NCBI RefSeq assembly: GCF_937859865.1
Contig: NZ_CALMAT010000130.1
Location: forward strand, 1-64,000
Direction: 5' to 3'
DNA length: 64,000 nucleotides
DNA from: an uncultured Mucilaginibacter sp.
GTDB taxonomy: Bacteria; Bacteroidota; Bacteroidia; Sphingobacteriales; Sphingobacteriaceae
Below are positions 759 through 62,443 of the stretch, in pieces; position 1 is the stretch's first letter; the number at the start of each line of letters is the position of its first letter. Under the pieces are notes generated by a model. The model had not been told where the DNA came from, ran no database searches, and saw only the letters and a program-made list of their open reading frames with translations. The position numbers and the translations under genes were made by a program.

Positions 759-861
759 TGTTGGTTATGAGTTAAAATCGTTCTCTTTTTTGAAAATGGT
801 TTCATTGCAACTTGTCTTGCAATTACTTAAGCCTGGTTAAATTTTGTCTTGTTTGTTTCCG

Positions 862-954
862 ATGCTTCTTTTAGCACCTAAATTTTGAAATCCCGGTGCT
901 TTGTTCTACCTGTGCCATTTATGGAAACCAATTTTATAGGCATAAAAGAAGCAT
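862..954. repeat. Paired TAAAAGAAGCAT element, inverted, 93 bp
   Basis: ATGCTTCTTTTAGCACCTAAATTTT ... CCAATTTTATAGGCATAAAAGAAGCAT. Confidence 0.85.
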
Positions 955-998
955 GTTGGTTTTAGGGCAGAAATTTAAACAGGCCCTTGCTAAAGCTT

Positions 999-9003: not shown

Positions 9004-9699
9004 TTGGAAACATTACTGCCAAAATTTGATTCGGTATTCTCGGTGGATTGTGTCATCTTCGGGTTTCAGGCAAATGAACTAAAAATTTTGCTCATCGAAC
9101 GCAACCAGGAACCTTACAAAGGCCGAAACGCGCTGCCTGGCTACATTGTTAAAGATGACGAAAGCATTGACGATGCTGCCGAACGTATTTTGTACGAACT
9201 GACTGGCCTGCGCGGCCTGCATATGGAACAGTTCCATACTTTTGGCGATGTGGACAGGCACCCGCAAGGCCGCGTAATTACGGTTGCTTATTATGCCTTG
9301 ATTCGGATTGACGGGCACAACGAAGTAAAACCGGTTACCAATTTTGCCCGCAGCGCGTTTTGGCACCCGGTAAATAAGTTGGACAAACTGCCTTACGACC
9401 ACAGTAAAATATTTGAAACCGGTTTCCAAAAGATACGCCGCCGGTTAAGTTACCAGCCCATCGCTTTTGAGCTGCTGCCCGAAAAATTTACCTTAACCCA
9501 ACTGCAAACGCTTTACGAAGCAATCCTGAACAAGAAGCTGGACAAGCGCAACTTCCGCAAAAAAATGCTGAGCTACGGGTTTTTGAAAGAACTGGACGAA
9601 AAGCAAAAAGGCGTTTCGTATCGCGCCGCAACTTTGTACCGTTTTGACCGGCGGAAATACAACAAGATTTTTCAGAACGAATTGAACATTAATGGCTGA
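9004..9699 (+). CDS. Nudix domain + C-terminal winged-helix protein (NrtR/AraR-like regulator)
   Basis: Nudix-like N-terminus (LLIERNQEPYKGRNALPGYIVKDDESIDDAAERILYELTG) plus C-terminal KRNFRKKMLSYGFLKEL...YRAATLYRFDRRKY; putative TTG start. Confidence 0.82.
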   Translation: METLLPKFDSVFSVDCVIFGFQANELKILLIERNQEPYKGRNALPGYIVKDDESIDDAAERILYELTGLRGLHMEQFHTFGDVDRHPQGRVITVAYYALIRIDGHNEVKPVTNFARSAFWHPVNKLDKLPYDHSKIFETGFQKIRRRLSYQPIAFELLPEKFTLTQLQTLYEAILNKKLDKRNFRKKMLSYGFLKELDEKQKGVSYRAATLYRFDRRKYNKIFQNELNING

Positions 9700-9742
9700 T
9701 GCTTCTTTTACCGGCATAAATTTAGTGTGCTAAAAGAAGCAT
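9699..9742. repeat. Paired element, 44 bp, starting at the stop codon of the Nudix-HTH gene
   Basis: ATGCTTCTTTTACCGGCATAAATTTAGTGTGCTAAAAGAAGCAT; outer 12 bp perfectly complementary. Confidence 0.85.
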
Positions 9743-11533: not shown

Positions 11534-11664
11534 GATTTTTTGCTTTTATTATGCTTGCTCAGACTGTTGTTTTTGTAAAACGTTTATGGCAGTTTAAAAT
11601 TTTTGTTTTTTGGGGAAAGGATTGCTTTGAATTGCCTTTATTTTGCACCAAAATTAAAATCAGG

Positions 11665-12684
11665 ATGACTGTTGATTTAAGAAGCGATACCGTAACCAAA
11701 CCCACGCCAGGAATGTTGGAAGCGATGTGGAGCGCCAAAGTAGGCGACGATGTTTACGGCGAAGACGAAACCGTGAACGCACTGGAAGCCAAAGCTGCGG
11801 CGATGTTTGGGATGGAAGCCGCCATTTTTTGCCCTTCGGGAACGATGACGAACCAGATTGCCATCAAATGTTTTACACAACCTATGGACGAACTGATTGC
11901 CGACCAAACCGCGCACGTTTACCGGTACGAAGGCGGCGGGATTGCCTTTAATTCGGCTGTTTCTACACGTTTGTTAAACGGCGAACGCGGTATTTTAACG
12001 CCGGAAATGATCGAACCGGAAATTAACGACCCAAACAATATTCATTTCCCGCACACAACTTTAGTCGTTTTAGAAAACACGGTAAACAAAGGCGGCGGCA
12101 ATTGTTATCGCTTAGAACAAATCAAACCAATTGCAAATTTATGTGCTAAAAGAAGCATTAAATTACATTTAGACGGCGCACGGATTTTTAACGCTTTAAC
12201 TTTCACCAAAAACAAAGCCGCGGATTACGGACAGTATTTTGACGGGATTTCCGTTTGCCTTTCCAAAGGTTTGGGCGCGCCGGTTGGTTCTGTTTTGTTG
12301 GCCGATAAAAAAAGCATTGCGCAGGCCCGCCGCATCCGCAAAGTTTTAGGCGGAGGGATGCGTCAGGCCGGTTTTTTGGCTGCCGCCGGGATTTATGCTT
12401 TGGATAATCATGTTGAACGTTTGCAGCAAGACCATGACCACGCTAAATTATTGGAAGAAACTTTATTAAACTGCAAATGGGTTACCGGTGTTTTGAAAGT
12501 AGAAACCAATCTTGTCATTTTTGATACGGTAAAAGAAGCATCCTATTATCTGCAAAAATTAGCTGAAAAAGGGATCAAAGCTTCTGCCAATGATGTGCGC
12601 CGCATCCGTTTTGTAACGCATTTGGATGTTAGTCCGGATCAAATTCAATATACAATTGAAGCTTTAAAAAGTCTAAACGAATAA
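11665..12684 (+). CDS. Threonine aldolase family PLP-dependent enzyme
   Basis: MTVDLRSDTVTKPTPGMLEAM; AAIFCPSGTMTNQIAI; KLHLDGARIFNA. Confidence 0.92.
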   Translation: MTVDLRSDTVTKPTPGMLEAMWSAKVGDDVYGEDETVNALEAKAAAMFGMEAAIFCPSGTMTNQIAIKCFTQPMDELIADQTAHVYRYEGGGIAFNSAVSTRLLNGERGILTPEMIEPEINDPNNIHFPHTTLVVLENTVNKGGGNCYRLEQIKPIANLCAKRSIKLHLDGARIFNALTFTKNKAADYGQYFDGISVCLSKGLGAPVGSVLLADKKSIAQARRIRKVLGGGMRQAGFLAAAGIYALDNHVERLQQDHDHAKLLEETLLNCKWVTGVLKVETNLVIFDTVKEASYYLQKLAEKGIKASANDVRRIRFVTHLDVSPDQIQYTIEALKSLNE

Positions 12685-17965: not shown

Positions 17966-18009
17966 TTTTAGTTTTAACAAATTTTTAACATTTGTATTCT
18001 AAAACAAGT

Positions 18010-21000
18010 ATGAAAAAACTTCTATTTTTTCTTTTATCGTTTACGGCTTCGCTAACTGTTTTTGCCCAAAACCGAACGATTACAGGTGTAATAACCGATG
18101 CAAAAGACGGTTCAGGTTTGCCTGGGGTTAGTGTTACCGTAAAAGAAATCCCAACGATAGGGACACAAACAGATGCAACTGGGAAGTACAGCATTTCTGT
18201 TCCTGCCAATGCCAAAACCCTCATTATAAATTATATTGGGTTTGGTACGCAACAATTACCCATTACCGGAAGTGTGCTTAATACAGCCATTCGCGAAAAT
18301 GCACAGCAATTATCAGAAGTGGTGGTGGTGGGTTATGGCACGCAAACCCGGCAATCGGTAACCGGTTCGATAGCTGGCGTTACGGCAAAAGACATCGCCG
18401 AAACACCCGTGCCAAGTGTTGAACAGGCTATCCAGGGCAAAATCCCGGGTGTGGCCATCCAATCCAACAATGGTAAATTAGGGCAGGGGATACAAATACG
18501 GGTAAGGGGCACTTCCTCTTTATCTGCCAGCAACCAGCCTTTGTATGTTGTTGATGGTATCCCGATTACTTCTTCCAGCCAATCAGGCACAGATGCGCCA
18601 ACCAACCCGATAGCCGACATTAATTTTAACGATGTTGAATCATTGGAAGTGTTAAAAGATGCTTCGGCATCTGCTATTTATGGTGCAAGGGCTTCCAACG
18701 GTGTTGTTTTGATCACCACAAAAAAAGGCAGGGCAGGCACGCCGCGCATCAATTTTACCGCACAATTTGGCGACAGCCAGCCTTCCAGACACCGCGATTT
18801 TTTAAACGCTTCGCAGTATGTGCAATTGGAAGAAAGGGCTGGGCTGGGGGCTGCTACACAGGATTTTAACGCCGGTTATTTTTCAACCTTGGCAGATGCA
18901 CAAAGCTATTACAAATCCTACGTAGATCGTCGCCTTACGCGTTACGCCGCCGGAAGCACCAACTGGCAAACGTCAGCCGTAAACACAGATTGGGAAAAAC
19001 TTGCTTTTCAAAAAGCGCCGCAATCGCAATATGATTTAAACCTGTCTGGCGGAACCGATAAAACAACTTATTACATCGGCGGCCAGTATTTGAACCAGGA
19101 CGGTATTTTAATCGGCAATAATTTTAAAAGATATTCCGGCAGGATCAACCTGGACAGCAAGATGTACAAAAATTTTACGGTGGGCATGAACCTGAGCTTT
19201 ACCAGGACGATCAACAACCGCGTATCTAACGATGATGCTTTTTCTACCCCGTTGCAAGATGTGGCTTTGTCGCCCATTACTCCGCAATTTGACCCGAGAA
19301 CAGGCTTGTTAAGCGGTACTTTGCCAAACGGTGTTTCCAGTACTTCAACTTTGGGCGGCACGCTGGCCAGTACCTACCCGGTTTATTATAACCCATTGTT
19401 AAGCCTTGGCAATGCTTCTTTTATCACCAATGTTTATCACACTTTAGGCAATGTTTACGGCGATCTTAAAATTGCCAAAGGTTTTTCTTTCCGTACCGAG
19501 TTTGGGATTGATCAGATCAACCAAAACGAAGACAGCTATTACAACAGTTTGACTTTCAGGAATACCGGTACGGCCAATGGTTCCGGCTCAGATGGTTATA
19601 ACCAGGTTTTAAACTATACCACCAACAATTACTTTACCTATAAAAACACTTTTGGCGATAACCACATTGTTGATTTTACAGGCGGCATGAGCTACCAGCT
19701 TTCGCAAACCAACTATAACCTGGCAACGGGCACACAGTTTCCTTCCGATGCTTACCGCACTATATCTTCGGCTGCGGTAACAACAGGCTCTTCCGGAAGT
19801 ACAAATTATAGTTTTGTGGGCTACTTTTTGAGGGGAAATTATGCTTATAAAAACAAATATTTAGTTTCTGCAAGTATCCGCGAAGACGGTTCTTCCCGTT
19901 TTGGCAAAGGCAATAAATATGGTGTTTATCCGGCTGGGTCTATCGGCTGGGTTTTAACAGAAGAAGATTTTTTGAAACCGGTAACTGCTTTAAGCAATTT
20001 AAAAATCAGGTTGAGTTACGGGCTGACCGGCAATGCAGAAATTTCCAACTATGCAGCTTTAGGGTTGTTTACCGGTACGGCCAGTTACAACGGTGTTGCT
20101 GGCCAGGCAATCACACAAATAGCCAATCCGAATTTGAAATGGGAATCTACCGCACAGTTTGATGCCGGTTTAGATTTTGGTTTGTTCAATAACCGTTTGT
20201 CCGGTTCGTTTGATTTTTATCGCAAAAACACCTATGACCTTTTGTTTAATGTGAATGTTCCGGGTACTTCCGGTTTTTCTACCCAATATCAAAATGCAGG
20301 CAAATTGTACAACCAGGGTTTAGAGTTTGGCTTATCCACACAAAACTTAGTGGGCAAGTTTAAGTGGTCAACTTCTGCCAATATCGCTTACAACAAAAAC
20401 GTGGTTACCGATGTAGGCGGGCAAATTTTGGGCACGAATGACCTGAACCGTGTACTTGAAGGGCAGCCAATCGGCGTTTTTTATGGAAGGGAATATGCCG
20501 GTGTTGACCCTGCAAACGGCGACGCGATTTATTATTTAAATACCACTAACCCCGACGGAACCCGTAACCGCAGCACAACCAACAATTATAATGCTGCCCA
20601 AAACGTAGTGTTAGGAAACCCAACGCCAAAGATTAATTACGGTTTTACCAATAATTTTGCTTTTGCAGGTTTTGACCTGGCCGTTACTTTTCAGGGTGTT
20701 TATGGCAACAAAATTTACAACAGCGGCGGCCAGTATATGAGCGCCAATGCCAGCAACGGTTTTGACAACCAGACAACTGACCAGATGAACTACTGGAACA
20801 AACCAGGCGATATCACCGATGTGCCTGAGCCGCGTCTGTTTCAGGGAAATGGGATTGCAGCTTCCAGCCGTTATTTGTCCAACGGATCTTATTTAAGGTG
20901 TAAAATTGTTTCTTTCGGTTATAACCTGCCTAAAGAATGGCTTAGCAAAATCAATGTGGCCAGGGCAAGGGTTTTTATGAATGCTTATAACCTGTTTTTA

Positions 21001-21132
21001 GTAACCAAGTATAAAGGCTGGGACCCGGAAGTTAATGCTGATTACCAGGCTTCAAACATCAACCTCGGTGTTGATTTTTATTCGGCACCACAACCGCGCA
21101 CCATTACTTTCGGTTTAAATATTGGTTTGTAA
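18010..21132 (+). CDS. SusC/RagA-family TonB-linked outer membrane protein
   Basis: MKKLLFFLLSF signal; VVVGYGTQTRQSVTGSIAGV; LYVVDGIPI; SASAIYGARASNGVVLITTKKG. Confidence 0.97.
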   Translation: MKKLLFFLLSFTASLTVFAQNRTITGVITDAKDGSGLPGVSVTVKEIPTIGTQTDATGKYSISVPANAKTLIINYIGFGTQQLPITGSVLNTAIRENAQQLSEVVVVGYGTQTRQSVTGSIAGVTAKDIAETPVPSVEQAIQGKIPGVAIQSNNGKLGQGIQIRVRGTSSLSASNQPLYVVDGIPITSSSQSGTDAPTNPIADINFNDVESLEVLKDASASAIYGARASNGVVLITTKKGRAGTPRINFTAQFGDSQPSRHRDFLNASQYVQLEERAGLGAATQDFNAGYFSTLADAQSYYKSYVDRRLTRYAAGSTNWQTSAVNTDWEKLAFQKAPQSQYDLNLSGGTDKTTYYIGGQYLNQDGILIGNNFKRYSGRINLDSKMYKNFTVGMNLSFTRTINNRVSNDDAFSTPLQDVALSPITPQFDPRTGLLSGTLPNGVSSTSTLGGTLASTYPVYYNPLLSLGNASFITNVYHTLGNVYGDLKIAKGFSFRTEFGIDQINQNEDSYYNSLTFRNTGTANGSGSDGYNQVLNYTTNNYFTYKNTFGDNHIVDFTGGMSYQLSQTNYNLATGTQFPSDAYRTISSAAVTTGSSGSTNYSFVGYFLRGNYAYKNKYLVSASIREDGSSRFGKGNKYGVYPAGSIGWVLTEEDFLKPVTALSNLKIRLSYGLTGNAEISNYAALGLFTGTASYNGVAGQAITQIANPNLKWESTAQFDAGLDFGLFNNRLSGSFDFYRKNTYDLLFNVNVPGTSGFSTQYQNAGKLYNQGLEFGLSTQNLVGKFKWSTSANIAYNKNVVTDVGGQILGTNDLNRVLEGQPIGVFYGREYAGVDPANGDAIYYLNTTNPDGTRNRSTTNNYNAAQNVVLGNPTPKINYGFTNNFAFAGFDLAVTFQGVYGNKIYNSGGQYMSANASNGFDNQTTDQMNYWNKPGDITDVPEPRLFQGNGIAASSRYLSNGSYLRCKIVSFGYNLPKEWLSKINVARARVFMNAYNLFLVTKYKGWDPEVNADYQASNINLGVDFYSAPQPRTITFGLNIGL

Positions 21133-21148
21133 TCCCTCAACATAAACA

Positions 21149-22543
21149 ATGATGAAAAAATTGAACATAAAATATACGGTTTGTGCAGGTTTAATGCTTC
21201 TTTTATCGGCTTGTAATAAGCAATTAGATTTAAAACCAACGCAAAGCATCGAGACTAGCCAGGCTTTGTTAACGGCGAAAGATGTACAAATTACATTGAT
21301 TGGCGCTTACAGTAACTTGGCTACGCTTGATGCAAACGGTGTAGAACATTTGTATAGCGGCTCTGTATTTTTAATGCCAGACCTGTTAGGAACTGCCGGG
21401 CAAAACATCATAGAATGGGCAGGAACGTACCAACAATTAACGGAGATGGCCAACCAATCAATTACGGTTACCAATAGTTATGTAGCCAATACCTGGCTTA
21501 CGGCTTATAACGATATCAACCAGCTAAACAATGTACTTTCCGCATTGAATAAAGTAACGGTTCAAGCCGATAAAGACCGGATAGAAGGGGAAGCCAAGTT
21601 TTTGCGTGGCATGATTTATTTTGATTTGGTAAGGCTGTATGGAAAAGCTTGGAACGATGGTGACCCGAATACCAACCTCGGCGTTCCGATAATTTTAACG
21701 CCGACTGCACAAATTGACGCTTCTTCTTATGTTGCCCGTTCTACCGTTGGCCAGGTTTATACACAAATACTTTCTGATTTGACAACGGCACAAACCAAAT
21801 TACCGGCTTCTAACAGTTTTTATGCCAATAAATATTCGGCGGCAGCTTTACTTTCAAGGGTTTATATGCAGAAACTAGATTATGCCAATGCTGCAACCGC
21901 TGCAAATGTGGTTATCAGTTCGGGTGCTTTCGGTTTAATGCCGACTTACGCTGCCGAGTTTCCGTACAGTACAACCGGCCCGGCACATGCTGACAACACT
22001 TCCGAAGATATTTTTGCTGTCCAAATTACTTCGCAACAAGGTGTTAACGCTTTAAACGAATTTTATGGCGGACCAACTTATGGCGGCCGCGGCGATGCTG
22101 TCGTTTCACCTTCTTTTCCTGCCGAATTTGAGCCGGGAGATGCACGCGGTGCTTTCTTTTATAACGATGGCGGTTCTCTTTATTCCTCCAAATTTCAAAA
22201 CCAATATGGCAACGTTAGGATAGTGCGTTTGGCCGAAATGTATTTAAACCGTGCCGAAGCCAATCTGCGTTCAAATACTGCCACCGGAGACACGCCTTTA
22301 AACGATGTCAACAAAATCCGTACACGTGCTGGTTTAGCCCCGCTTGCTTCCGTTTCTTTGGCACAGGTTTTAACAGAACGTAGGCACGAGTTAGCTTTTG
22401 AAGGCGGTTTCTTTTTGCACGATGCCAAACGGACGATGCAAAGTGTAGGCGCGCTTGAATGGAACTCGCCTAAACTGGTTTTCCCAATCCCGCAACGCGA
22501 AACCATTGCCAACCCCAATTTAAAACAAAACGCCGGTTATTGA
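21149..22543 (+). CDS. SusD/RagB-family nutrient-binding outer membrane lipoprotein
   Basis: LLLSACNKQLDLKPTQSI; EGEAKFLRGMIYFDLVRLYG; RLAEMYLNRAEA; ERRHELAFEGGFFLHD. Confidence 0.96.
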   Translation: MMKKLNIKYTVCAGLMLLLSACNKQLDLKPTQSIETSQALLTAKDVQITLIGAYSNLATLDANGVEHLYSGSVFLMPDLLGTAGQNIIEWAGTYQQLTEMANQSITVTNSYVANTWLTAYNDINQLNNVLSALNKVTVQADKDRIEGEAKFLRGMIYFDLVRLYGKAWNDGDPNTNLGVPIILTPTAQIDASSYVARSTVGQVYTQILSDLTTAQTKLPASNSFYANKYSAAALLSRVYMQKLDYANAATAANVVISSGAFGLMPTYAAEFPYSTTGPAHADNTSEDIFAVQITSQQGVNALNEFYGGPTYGGRGDAVVSPSFPAEFEPGDARGAFFYNDGGSLYSSKFQNQYGNVRIVRLAEMYLNRAEANLRSNTATGDTPLNDVNKIRTRAGLAPLASVSLAQVLTERRHELAFEGGFFLHDAKRTMQSVGALEWNSPKLVFPIPQRETIANPNLKQNAGY

Positions 22544-43362: not shown

Positions 43363-46254
43363 ATGAAGTTAAATATCAATTACCAGGAAAAATTTCAACA
43401 TCGTCATATCGCCCCGGATCAGCCAGAAACCGACGCAATGCTACATCAAATTGGTGTAGTATCGGTTGATGAACTGATCGATCAAACCGTTCCAGCCGCA
43501 ATCAGACTTAAAAATCCGCTCAATTTGCCTCCTGCCAAAAGCGAATTTGATTATCTAAACAGCTTAAAAATTACGGCCTCAAAAAATAAAGTCTTTAAAA
43601 GTTTTATCGGAAAAGGTTATTACGATGTGATCGTTCCGGGCGTTATCCAACGTAACATTTTGGAAAACCCGGGCTGGTACACGCAATACACACCTTACCA
43701 GGCCGAGATTGCGCAAGGCCGTTTGCAGGCTTTGCTCAATTTCCAAACGATGGTGATTGATTTGACCGGAATGGAAATTGCCAATGCTTCTTTGTTGGAT
43801 GAAGGCACGGCCGCTGCCGAAGCGATGTTTATGCAATACAGTTTGCGTAAAAATGCCAAAGCCAAAAAGTTTTTTGTTTCTGCGGAAGTTTTCCCGCAAA
43901 CGATTGATATTTTAAAAACCCGTTCTCAACCTTTGGATTTGGAATTGGTGATCGGTAATCATGAAACTGCTGAGTTGGATGATAGCTTTTTTGGTGCGAT
44001 CATTCAATATCCGGCCTCAAACGGTGAGGTTTACGATTACCGCAACTTTGCCGATTCCCTTCACCAAAAAAATATAAAACTAACTGTTGTTGCTGATTTG
44101 ATGAGCTTGGTTTTGCTCACGCCTCCGGGCGAGTGGGGCGCAGATGTAGTGGTTGGCACAACGCAGCGTTTTGGTGTGCCGATGGGTTTTGGTGGCCCGC
44201 ACGCTGCTTTTTTTGCCACAAAAGATGCCTATAAAAGAAGCATTCCCGGCCGTATCATCGGCGTAACGATTGATAATGCTGGCAATTATGCTTTGCGTAT
44301 GGCTTTGCAAACCCGCGAGCAGCACATTCGTAGGGACAAAGCAACTTCCAATATTTGTACGGCGCAGGCTTTGTTAGCGATAATGGCCGGAATGTATGCC
44401 GCTTATCATGGTGCCGAAGGTTTAAAATTGATTGCAGAACGCATTCATGGTTTAACCGTTTTGCTGTCCGAATCGTTAAAAGCTTTAGGTTACCAACACC
44501 AAAATGAAGTTTATTTTGATACACTGACTTTTGAAACCGGGCAAATTGTTGATACAATTCATTCCGAAGCCTTGAACCAGGAAATGAACTTTTATTATCA
44601 AGGTTCGCTGGTTTCGATTGCTTTGGATGAAACGACTGCTGCGGAAGATATCCAAACCATCGTTAAAATCTTTGCCAAAGCCAAAGGAAAAACTTTGGCC
44701 GATACCAATTTTGATGCGATAAAAGAAGCATTGCAAACGCCGGTTCCAACGGAATTGCAGCGCACTTCTGAATTTTTAAACCATCCGGTTTTTAACACGC
44801 ATCATTCTGAACACGAAATGCTGCGTTATATCAAATCGCTGGAAGCAAAAGATCTTTCTTTATGCAATTCGATGATTCCGTTGGGTTCGTGTACTATGAA
44901 GTTGAATGCAACTACAGAAATGGTTCCGGTTACTTGGCCGGAATTTAGCAAAATGCATCCGTTTGCACCAACTGACCAAGTGGGCGGTTACATGCAGATT
45001 TTTGATGAACTGAACCAATGGCTGAATGAAATCACCGGGTTTGCGGCGATGAGTTTGCAGCCAAATGCCGGTGCACAAGGCGAATATGCTGGTTTACTGG
45101 TGATTCGCGCCTACCATCATGCCAATGGCGACCACCATCGAAATATTGCATTGATCCCTTCTTCGGCACATGGAACCAATCCGGCTTCGGCAGCCATGGC
45201 CGGCATGAAAATCATCGTGGTAAAATGTGATGACAACGGAAACATTGACGTTGCAGATTTGAAAGCGAAAGCCGAACAATACCGCAATGAACTTTCTTGT
45301 TTGATGGTTACGTATCCTTCAACCCACGGCGTTTTTGAAGAATCTATCATCGAAATTTGCGATATTATCCATCAGCACGGCGGCCAGGTTTACATGGATG
45401 GTGCCAACATGAATGCACAAGTTGGTTTAACCAGTCCGGCCAATATTGGTGCCGATGTTTGCCACCTCAACCTGCATAAAACTTTTTGCATTCCGCATGG
45501 CGGCGGCGGCCCGGGCATGGGCCCGATTGGCGTAGCTAAACACTTGGTTCAGTTTTTACCGGGACATGCCATGGTTGATATCGAACAGGGAAAATCTATT
45601 CCGGCAGTTTCGGCAGCTCCTTGGGGTTCGGCTTCTATCTTGCTGATTTCTCATGCTTATATTGCCATGATGGGCAGCGAAGGTTTAACCAATGCTACCC
45701 GTTATGCTATTTTAAACGCCAATTATATTAAATCCCGTTTAGAAAAATATTATCCGGTTTTGTATGCCGGGGCAAACGGAAGATGCGCGCACGAAATGAT
45801 TCTGGATTGTCGCGCTTTCAAAAATTTTGGTATCGAAGTAACGGATATTGCCAAACGGTTGATAGATTACGGTTTCCATGCGCCAACGGTTTCTTTCCCG
45901 GTTGCCGGAACGGTGATGGTGGAGCCGACAGAATCAGAACCTAAACACGAACTTGACCGGTTTTGTGATGCGATGGTTTCTATCCGGAACGAAATTGAAG
46001 ATGTGGCAAACGGTATTTCTGATAAAGCAAATAACCCGCTAAAAAATGCCCCGCATACAGCTGCCGTTGTTACAGATAACGAGTGGGAGCATCCATACAC
46101 ACGGCAAAAAGCAGCTTTCCCGCTGCCTTATGTTGCTGCTTTTAAATTTTGGCCTTCTGTAGGTCGTGTAAACGATACACACGGCGACCGTACTTTAATT
46201 TGTGCATGCCCTCCTTTGGAAAGTTATGCTTTTGAAGAAAGTTTGACCGAATAA
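43363..46254 (+). CDS. gcvP: Glycine dehydrogenase (aminomethyl-transferring)
   Basis: [57 protein letters not shown]. Confidence 0.97.
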
Positions 46255-47753: not shown

Positions 47754-49469
47754 ATGCAAAAGCGATGGGTTTTGGAGCAGGAGGGAAACCGCGAACAGGT
47801 TTTGGCTTTGGCAGAGGCTTTGCAAATTGACGAAGTGCTGAGCAACCTGCTGGTGCAGCGCGGCGTTACTACTTTTGAAGAAGCCAGATACTTTTTCAGG
47901 CCGGATTTAGGCCATTTGCACGATCCGTTTTTAATGCAGGATATGGAAAAAGCCGTGCTTCGGATTGAAAAAGCTATCAGCAACAACGAAAAAATATTGA
48001 TTTATGGTGATTACGATGTGGACGGAACCACGGCCGTTTCTGTTGTGTATCAGTTTTTTAAGAAGCGTTACAAAAACATTTTCTTTTATATTCCGAACCG
48101 ATACACGGAAGGTTACGGCATTTCTACCGCCGGGATTGATTTTGCTGCCGAGCATAATTTCAGTTTGATTATTGCTTTGGATTGCGGTATCAAATCCGTA
48201 GAAAAAGTAATTTATGCCGGTAAAAGAAGCATTGACTTTATCATCTGCGACCACCATTTGCCAGGCGAAGAACTGCCGCAAGCCGTTGCCGTTTTAGATC
48301 CGAAAAGAAGCGATTGCGGTTATCCTTACAAAGAGCTTTCTGGCTGCGGTATTGGTTTTAAACTGATTCAGGCTTATGCCGAAAAAAATGATACTCCGTT
48401 TGAAGAAGTCAATTGTTACTTGGATTTGGTTGCCGTCAGTATTGCTTGTGATCTCGTCCACATTAACGGCGAAAACCGCACGCTTACGGCTTTTGGCCTC
48501 GAAAAAATCAACACCAATCCTTCCATTGGTTTAAAAGCTTTGATGAATGTTGCCGGAAAAGCGGAAAATTATACTGTTTCTGATCTCGTTTTTACCATCG
48601 GCCCGCGCATCAATGCCGCCGGGCGGATTGATGATGCCAAACACGCGGTTAACTTGTTGATTGCGGATTGTTCGGTTTCGGCTTCTGATTTCGGCGAATC
48701 CATCAACCTGAAAAATACCGAACGAAAAGAGCATGACCTGAGCATTACCGGCCAGGCTTTGAATATGATTGATCAAAACCCGCTGCTCATCAACCGCCGT
48801 TCTACCGTGGTTTTTCAGGAAAACTGGCACAAAGGCGTGATTGGAATTGTGGCTTCGCGCTTAACCGAAAAATATTACCGGCCAACCGTTGTATTGACCA
48901 AAAGCAATGGCCACGTTACCGGTTCTGCGCGTTCTGTTTACGGTTTTGATTTGTACGAAGCTTTGTGCGGCTGCAGCGATTTACTGTTGCAGTTTGGCGG
49001 ACATAAATATGCCGCCGGTTTAACTTTGCTGCCCGAAAACGTAACAGCGTTTAGCGAACGTTTTGAGGAAATTGTAGCTTCGGTAATTACAGAAGAACAA
49101 TTGGTGCAACGGATCAGGATTGATGCTGAAATCAAATTAAACCACATTACACCGCGTTTTCTACGGATTTTAAAGCAGTTTGCGCCTTTCGGCCCGGAAA
49201 ATATGACGCCTGTTTTCGTAACTAAAAATGTGTATGTTAGCGGCAATATAAACCTGGTGGGCGAAAAACACCTTAAACTTTGCGTAGTGCAGGAGGGTTC
49301 TGCAATTTTTAACTGTATTGGTTTTGGTATGGGCGACTATATTTATGCCATTAAAAACAGTATGCCGTTTGATATTTGTTATACCATCGAAGAAAACGTT
49401 TGGCGCGAACAGAAAACTTTGCAATTGAATGTAAAAGGGATTCGGTTTGAAGATACAACATCAGCATAA
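47754..49469 (+). CDS. recJ: Single-stranded-DNA-specific exonuclease RecJ
   Basis: ILIYGDYDVDGTTAVSVVYQFF; DFIICDHHLPGEELP; GPRINAAGRIDDAKHAV. Confidence 0.96.
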   Translation: MQKRWVLEQEGNREQVLALAEALQIDEVLSNLLVQRGVTTFEEARYFFRPDLGHLHDPFLMQDMEKAVLRIEKAISNNEKILIYGDYDVDGTTAVSVVYQFFKKRYKNIFFYIPNRYTEGYGISTAGIDFAAEHNFSLIIALDCGIKSVEKVIYAGKRSIDFIICDHHLPGEELPQAVAVLDPKRSDCGYPYKELSGCGIGFKLIQAYAEKNDTPFEEVNCYLDLVAVSIACDLVHINGENRTLTAFGLEKINTNPSIGLKALMNVAGKAENYTVSDLVFTIGPRINAAGRIDDAKHAVNLLIADCSVSASDFGESINLKNTERKEHDLSITGQALNMIDQNPLLINRRSTVVFQENWHKGVIGIVASRLTEKYYRPTVVLTKSNGHVTGSARSVYGFDLYEALCGCSDLLLQFGGHKYAAGLTLLPENVTAFSERFEEIVASVITEEQLVQRIRIDAEIKLNHITPRFLRILKQFAPFGPENMTPVFVTKNVYVSGNINLVGEKHLKLCVVQEGSAIFNCIGFGMGDYIYAIKNSMPFDICYTIEENVWREQKTLQLNVKGIRFEDTTSA

Positions 49470-54156: not shown

Positions 54157-54195
54157 CTAAAACCTGTTTAAACTTATTCTTTTGTATTTTGCACA

Positions 54196-54289
54196 ATGCT
54201 TCTTTTACCCTACAAAAATTGGTATGCCCTGGTTTCTGGTTTGTTCAGGCTGAATGTATGCACCAATTTTTATAGGGTAAAAGAAGCAT
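54196..54289. repeat. Paired element, 94 bp with about 28-bp near-perfect inverted arms
   Basis: ATGCTTCTTTTACCCTACAAAAATTGGT ... ACCAATTTTTATAGGGTAAAAGAAGCAT. Confidence 0.9.
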
Positions 54290-54337
54290 CAACTTAAAAA
54301 AAGTTTAAACATCTTTTGAATCAGAAAAAAAACGGGT

Positions 54338-61850: not shown

Positions 61851-62234
61851 GGAGAAATACAAATATTTTCCGTTAAAATAAAAATGCTTTTAACGCCGGA
61901 AGTTAATTTTAAGGCAATTGCACAAGCCTTTTTTCCGACAGGTGAATGTGTATTTGCAGGAAACGGTTTAAATCCGGGAAATGTAAATCCGTCGTCGTTT
62001 TAACGAAAAGAGGCGGGTAGAAACCAAAACTAACGCAGTTGCAACCGGAGCAAAAACCGCTCTGACAGTAGGCAAAATATAGCGTTGTTGATTCATTATT
62101 TGTCTAATTTAAAATGCTGCAATTATCGCGTTAATTTTTTGATTATACTACGTGCATTTTCAAAAGTTACATTAAAGACAAATTCTTTGCCGCGAAGTTT
62201 AAAACCTGTTTAAAATTTACTTATTCAGGTTTAC

Positions 62235-62325
62235 ATACTTCTTTTACCCTATAAAAATTGGTGTAATTGGTTTGTGCTTTGTTAAGTTGGCGCAGGCACC
62301 AATTTTTATAGGGTAAAAGAAGCAT
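62235..62325. repeat. Paired element, 91 bp with about 28-bp inverted arms
   Basis: ATACTTCTTTTACCCTATAAAAATTGGTG ... CACCAATTTTTATAGGGTAAAAGAAGCAT. Confidence 0.9.
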
Positions 62326-62443
62326 CGCCGTTTTTACTTGGATCTGTTTAAACAGTTTCCTTAACTGCAAATGTTGATAAGTTTGTTGATAAAATGTGGA
62401 AAAGTAGCAATATTAAAAGCTAAAATTATTGGTAATTATGTGA

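Follow-up and report, generated by a model that had tools for sequence, protein, structure and literature searches.

Introduction

Three palindromes of nearly equal size are located in the 64,000-nucleotide stretch of DNA from an uncultured Mucilaginibacter sp. that has been analysed here (the window), and they raise the question of whether they are copies of a mobile element, or inverted pairs of a DNA uptake sequence. The first-pass annotation of the window had treated these two explanations as competitors: it described the palindromes as elements of about 91-94 bp with 28-bp arms, which would descend from a common ancestor and would be mobilised in trans as a REP/MITE family, for example by a RAYT/Tnp1-like enzyme.

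To our knowledge, the Neisseriaceae and Pasteurellaceae are the only families with established uptake sequences, and the way in which an uptake sequence first spreads is an open question. Our literature search has found no report of an uptake sequence in Bacteroidota, and nothing relevant on the 12-mer ATGCTTCTTTTA that forms the tips of the arms, on uptake sequences in connection with Mucilaginibacter, or on uptake sequences in connection with MITEs; a study of Riemerella describes a preference for the organism's own DNA, and the 10-mers that it lists, AAAAATAAAA among them, are of putative function and no more than weakly over-represented (PMC7965970). Here, we have compared the draft genome to which the window belongs (3.98 Mb) with two congeners, Mucilaginibacter arboris HMF7410 (G001) and a second Mucilaginibacter genome (G002).

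The palindromes are parts of longer elements

All three palindromes have been found with the sizes that had been described for them, i.e. 93 bp (862-954), 94 bp (54196-54289) and 91 bp (62235-62325); the arms are complementary at 18 of 28 positions in the first palindrome and at 27 of 28 in each of the other two. A search of the whole genome with the 94-bp unit has returned about 41 near-full-length copies, at 75-85% identity, and such palindromes occur far above chance: there are 233 convergent pairs of the exact 12-mer, 74-104 bp apart, genome-wide, and none of the reversed pattern. Most pairs of 92-96 bp have a common centre related to CCTGTATCAATTTAAACAAATCAAAAACCAAATGCT, in either orientation, which confirms that the centre fragments shared by the three palindromes reflect real homology; at least one additional centre subfamily occurs at 96 bp.

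The 28-bp arms, on the other hand, are not the boundaries of the element. When the convergent pairs are lined up with 60-bp flanks, the homology extends for about 30 bp outside each arm, up to terminal inverted repeats (TIRs) of the sequence GAGCCTGTTTAAATTT (at the left end, with its complement at the right end), and the three copies of the window are thus 157-158 bp long (Table 1). Every pair of GAGCCTGTTTAAATTT repeats that are 150-180 bp apart encloses two motifs, and in most of these pairs the 3-bp flanks are identical. A profile of 161 positions, built from 12 elements of this type, has full-length matches to 34 copies in about 656 kb (27 in 500 kb of the own genome and seven in 156 kb of G001), which measure 148-207 bp, usually 153-168 bp, and contain no transposase; since the 500-kb sample consists of stretches that were partly picked around element matches, its MITE density is biased upward, while the counts of the 12-mer, of the convergent pairs and of the motif with its AT tract refer to the whole genome. 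Identical 3-bp flanks are seen in 12 of the 34 full-length copies (TAA in seven, TTA in four, another triplet in one), where 0.6 would be expected, and intact copies thus carry 3-bp TAA/TTA target duplications.

Table 1. Coordinates of the MITE copies and of the motif copies discussed in the text (positions in the window).
Feature	Coordinates	Strand	Details
MITE copy 1, 158 bp, around 862-954	829..986	-	left end AAGCCTGGTTAAATTT, right end AAATTTAAACAGGCCC; profile match E 3e-30, whole 161-position model
MITE copy 2, 157 bp, around 54196-54289	54160..54316	-	decayed ends AAACCTGTTTAAACTT / AAGTTTAAACATCTTT; full-length profile match E 5e-19
MITE copy 3, 158 bp, around 62235-62325	62202..62359	-	left end AAACCTGTTTAAAATT, right end TGTTTAAACAGTTTC; full-length profile match E 7e-24
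Left arm of copy 1, core motif	862..873	+	
Right arm of copy 1, core motif	943..954	-	
Left arm of copy 2, uptake-like motif	54196..54224	+	core ATGCTTCTTTTA + CCCTACAAAAATTGGTA
Right arm of copy 2, motif on the opposite strand	54261..54289	-	ATGCTTCTTTTACCCTATAAAAATTGGTG
Left arm of copy 3, core with one change	62235..62246	+	ATACTTCTTTTA
Right arm of copy 3, core motif	62314..62325	-	
Short 44-bp convergent motif pair, no MITE ends	9699..9742	.	
Solitary motif in ORF 11551-12684	12530..12541	-	conserved in G001 and G002, no indels
Solitary motif in 963-aa ORF (43363-46254)	44232..44243	-	AYKRSIPG encoded by other codons in motif-less relatives
Second solitary motif in 963-aa ORF (43363-46254)	44720..44731	-	
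Solitary motif in ORF 47754-49469	48221..48232	-	conserved in G001 and G002, no indels

The change G3A, as it occurs in ATACTTCTTTTA, is the commonest variant of the core in the sampled sequence. The short 44-bp pair of Table 1 has a near-identical repeat at G000:C130:125622-125665 and a diverged form in G001; it may be a terminator or a member of a second small family. The second half of that contig (G000:C130, about 68200-137100) is not collinear with the fetched segments of G001 and G002, and contains many MITE-like pairs, nearly all of them intergenic.

Insertion sites and the probable source of mobility

Comparison with the congeners has revealed empty sites, read at about 80% DNA identity, with the exact join being approximate: the gap that is orthologous to the surroundings of copy 1 lacks the element in both G001 and G002, and the site of copy 2 is empty in G002 and occupied by a diverged copy in G001. 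A MITE from another contig, searched as part of a longer query, has detected dozens of copies in each of the two congeners, all bounded by these ends. The common ancestry and mobility that had been proposed from the palindromes alone are thus borne out by many further copies, by empty sites and by target duplications.

IS5-family transposase genes are present in all three genomes; three of them are framed by MITE-like ends, one with a TTA duplication, and two of the transposases score above the cut-off of the NCBIfam IS5 model NF033580. One IS5-family element of G001 is 855 bp long, with the TIR GAAACTGTTTAAATTT and the duplication TTA, and others, in the own genome and in G002, are 930-933 bp long, with the ends GAGGTTGTTTAAACTT. 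These ends are similar, but not identical, to those of the MITE; no IS that ends exactly in GAGCCTGTTTAAATTT has been seen, and the parent IS is therefore a putative one. The elements share their type of TIR with an IS, generate a duplication of a fixed type, are short, multicopy and devoid of a transposase, and have empty sites, as is characteristic of IS5-type MITEs; we are highly confident that the palindromes are the inner parts of such non-autonomous elements. An IS5-family transposase, acting on the outer GAGCCTGTTTAAATTT repeats, would have inserted them.

Similar MITEs are found in P. gingivalis, where they are likewise short and non-coding, carry IS5-type TIRs and occur in many copies in a Bacteroidota genome; their ends resemble those of ISPg1, ISPg3 and ISPg9 (PMC4596501). 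The elements described here differ from them in the sequence of the TIRs, in their TAA/TTA duplications, and in the inverted pair of a genome-wide motif that they enclose.

One of the IS5-family elements of the own genome (L109, G000:C174:1-2441, at 56-988) is 933 bp long, and its inverted ends, GAGGTTGTTTAAACTT, match perfectly over 16 bp; the open frame covers 284 aa, but only 140 aa remain from the first ATG, and it may therefore be frameshifted or use another start codon. A 969-bp pair of TIRs (C22:4709-5677), considered as an autonomous IS, has been rejected, as it encodes no transposase and as the repeat on its right is the end of a MITE.

A genome-wide motif with a core and an AT tract

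The 12-mer ATGCTTCTTTTA occurs 2,114 times in the own genome, 1,055 times on the forward and 1,059 times on the reverse strand, compared to about one copy that is expected from base composition and to two copies of the reversed word. It is the core of a motif of about 29 bp, ATGCTTCTTTTA-YCRSN-(T)AAAAATTGGTG, in which a few preferred bases follow the core, and positions 19-25, downstream of it by about one helical turn, form an A/T tract; the tract is located at the right distance in 1,887 of the 2,114 own copies, and in 1,716 copies in G001. Elsewhere in the order, 299 genomes have 0-4 copies each of the form that combines the core and the AT tract; no copy of the extended motif has been found in viral contigs, and no other dialects of the motif in 20-kb samples of other genera.

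Convergent 12-mer pairs with the spacing of the MITE number 233 in the own genome, 141 in G001 and 31 in G002; therefore, at most 22%, 14% and 6% of the motif copies, respectively, belong to MITE-like pairs, and at least 78% of the own arm-tip 12-mers are located outside such pairs, genes included. The density of the motif is strongly intergenic (3.27 per kb, versus 0.13 per kb in genes), more so than is known of USS and DUS. The spacing of the motif is slightly more even than random in the own sequence (CV 0.73 versus 0.92), and no such evenness is seen in G001 or G002. In a 20-kb sample of G002 (L088, G002:C3:204001-224000), the palindromes TCCGGCCGGA and TTTACCGGTAAA are also over-represented, and the latter may consist of two fused motif cores.

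Motif copies inside genes

In the 500-kb sample, 55 of 286 motif copies are located in ORFs, i.e. 55 copies in 430 kb of coding sequence, where 0.12 would be expected, and the AT tract is retained in them (88% A/T at positions 19-24, versus about 59% in the genome). Most of the in-gene copies on contig C130 align to the congeners without indels, differing by substitutions; in the 963-aa ORF, which has also been aligned to other genera in a comparison of orthologs that was restricted to rows with aligned residues, the same residues are encoded by other codons. Because the alignments are free of indels, and motif-less relatives encode the same residues differently, the in-gene copies have arisen by substitution. 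The in-gene density is also alike in the three species (0.128, 0.136 and 0.097 per kb), although their MITE-like pairs differ sevenfold in number, and the motif is therefore independent of the MITE. The opposition of a MITE to an uptake sequence, from which the analysis of this locus had started, does not hold: with about 2,100 12-mers, most of them outside MITE-like pairs, and with the in-gene copies originating from substitution, both explanations are probably needed.

The region 17992-22543 contains a large and a small ORF, putatively SusC/SusD-like from their size and order, with motifs inside both; it has no match in the collinear segments of G001 and G002.

Preservation of the core within the MITEs

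Across the MITE copies, the 12-mers have a mean pairwise identity of 98%, whereas the TIRs reach 76% and the centres 59%. The same contrast is seen between the two occupants of a single site: the copy at 54196 and its counterpart in G001 have both cores identical at 12 of 12 positions, with centres that are only 47% identical. Something therefore keeps the core intact after insertion, while the centre decays; biased uptake together with recombination would explain this upkeep, and the binding of a chromosomal protein might explain it as well.

Alternative explanations

Regarding the palindromes, a REP/REPIN family that is mobilised in trans by a RAYT (a Tnp1/IS200-like tyrosine transposase), as the first-pass annotation had suggested, would account for intergenic, inverted pairs of a repeated word with constant spacing, and each genome has one or two Y1_Tnp genes; of that suggestion, the MITE has been retained and the RAYT abandoned. 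The ends of the elements are IS5-type TIRs that lie outside the arms and are flanked by TAA/TTA duplications, IS5 transposases are present in the genus, and the single Y1_Tnp gene of the own genome (L170) is not bracketed by motif pairs, and no RAYT gene with REP flanks has been found; furthermore, the sequence of a single motif is not a palindrome, and a single motif is not the short extragenic hairpin that forms a REP unit, and most motifs occur outside such pairs, many of them in genes. We consider this explanation highly improbable, and we judge just as sceptically the proposal that the palindromes are immobile, i.e. chance or selected inverted pairs of an uptake sequence that terminate transcription, as is the case in Neisseria and Haemophilus. 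The hairpin formed by the inverted pair is indeed very stable (MFE -50 kcal/mol, z -6.65), and short pairs of 44-45 bp, such as 9699-9742, lack MITE ends, so that termination may hold for these short pairs; for the palindromes themselves, it is contradicted by the conserved centres and outer ends, by the target duplications and empty sites, and by the position of copy 3 between divergent ORFs, which is not that of a terminator.

Regarding the motif, it is built into the MITE itself, and its intergenic density follows the number of MITE pairs (1.08 per kb with the 31 pairs of G002, 3.27 per kb with the 233 pairs of the own genome), as would be seen if the motifs were what remains of a MITE that was massively amplified long ago, with no function of their own. 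This is very unlikely, as motif-less relatives can be aligned to the in-gene copies codon by codon and without indels, as these copies occur at a density that does not depend on the number of MITEs, and as neutral remains would not hold the 12-mer nearly invariant while the centre diverges. An alternative that is unlikely, but deserves more weight, is that a chromosomal protein (involved in nucleoid organisation, in a recombination hot spot or in repair) binds to the motif, which would be spread by the MITE and unrelated to uptake: the high density, extreme conservation and genus restriction of the motif are consistent with such a site, as is the lack of a recognisable pilus ATPase (see below), whereas the nearly equal counts on the two strands argue against a polar signal of the Chi or KOPS kind, and the layout of a core with an AT tract, together with the substitution origin of the in-gene copies, fits uptake sequences.

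The motif as a candidate uptake sequence

The motif is extremely over-represented across the whole genome and on both strands, its architecture is conserved, its in-gene copies derive from substitution, and it is restricted to the genus; on these grounds, we find it most likely, with moderate confidence, that its role is that of a DNA uptake sequence. Kin would preferentially take up fragments that bear the motif, and recombination with the incoming DNA would recreate and repair the motif wherever it arises; this upkeep would act by substitution in genes, and also inside the MITEs, where the motif would outlive the rest of the element. The MITE, with its two facing motifs, would have a double part: as a vehicle, it would bring new motifs into intergenic regions, and as a passenger, it would itself be favoured by uptake. 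The reading as a whole, of an IS5-type MITE family whose members enclose two inverted copies of an uptake-like sequence, appears to us reasonably probable.

No PilB/PilT-type (T2SSE) ATPase (PF00437) scores above the cut-off in the three congeners, and the known pilus-based DUS/USS receptors therefore have no visible counterpart; the motif would work like an uptake sequence, and is better described by analogy than as a formal member of a class that is defined by type IV pilus uptake machinery with a specific receptor. ComEC is present in the genus, but also in nearly all of the tested relatives, which are motif-less, and therefore does not discriminate. The strongly intergenic distribution of the motif and its barely regular spacing likewise count against an uptake role. 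There is, in our estimate, an even chance that DNA uptake with self-recognition has arisen independently once more, this time in Bacteroidota, with no type IV pilus ATPase and with a MITE that carries facing uptake sequences, where transposition would seed the signal and biased uptake would preserve it. A genus that combines about 2,100 USS-shaped motifs, a motif-carrying MITE and no pilus ATPase would make the problems of the receptor and of the origin testable in a new place.

Among the known systems, the receptor of the Neisseriaceae DUS is a type IV pilin; the DUS resembles the motif in being a clade-restricted and very abundant word that occurs in inverted pairs. The DUS is uninterrupted and at most about 13 nt long (PMC12616744), unlike the motif described here, with its core and AT tract. 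The latter layout has been described for the Pasteurellaceae USS (PMC12616744), which shares with our motif a near-invariant short core followed by an AT-rich segment, a total length of about 30 bp, a density of about 0.5 per kb, strand symmetry, genic and intergenic copies, and occurrence in related species; our motif differs from the USS in its ATGCTTCTTTTA core, in its Bacteroidota host, in having a single clear AT tract, where the USS has two, in its much more intergenic distribution and in being embedded in a MITE, with no recognisable pilus ATPase.
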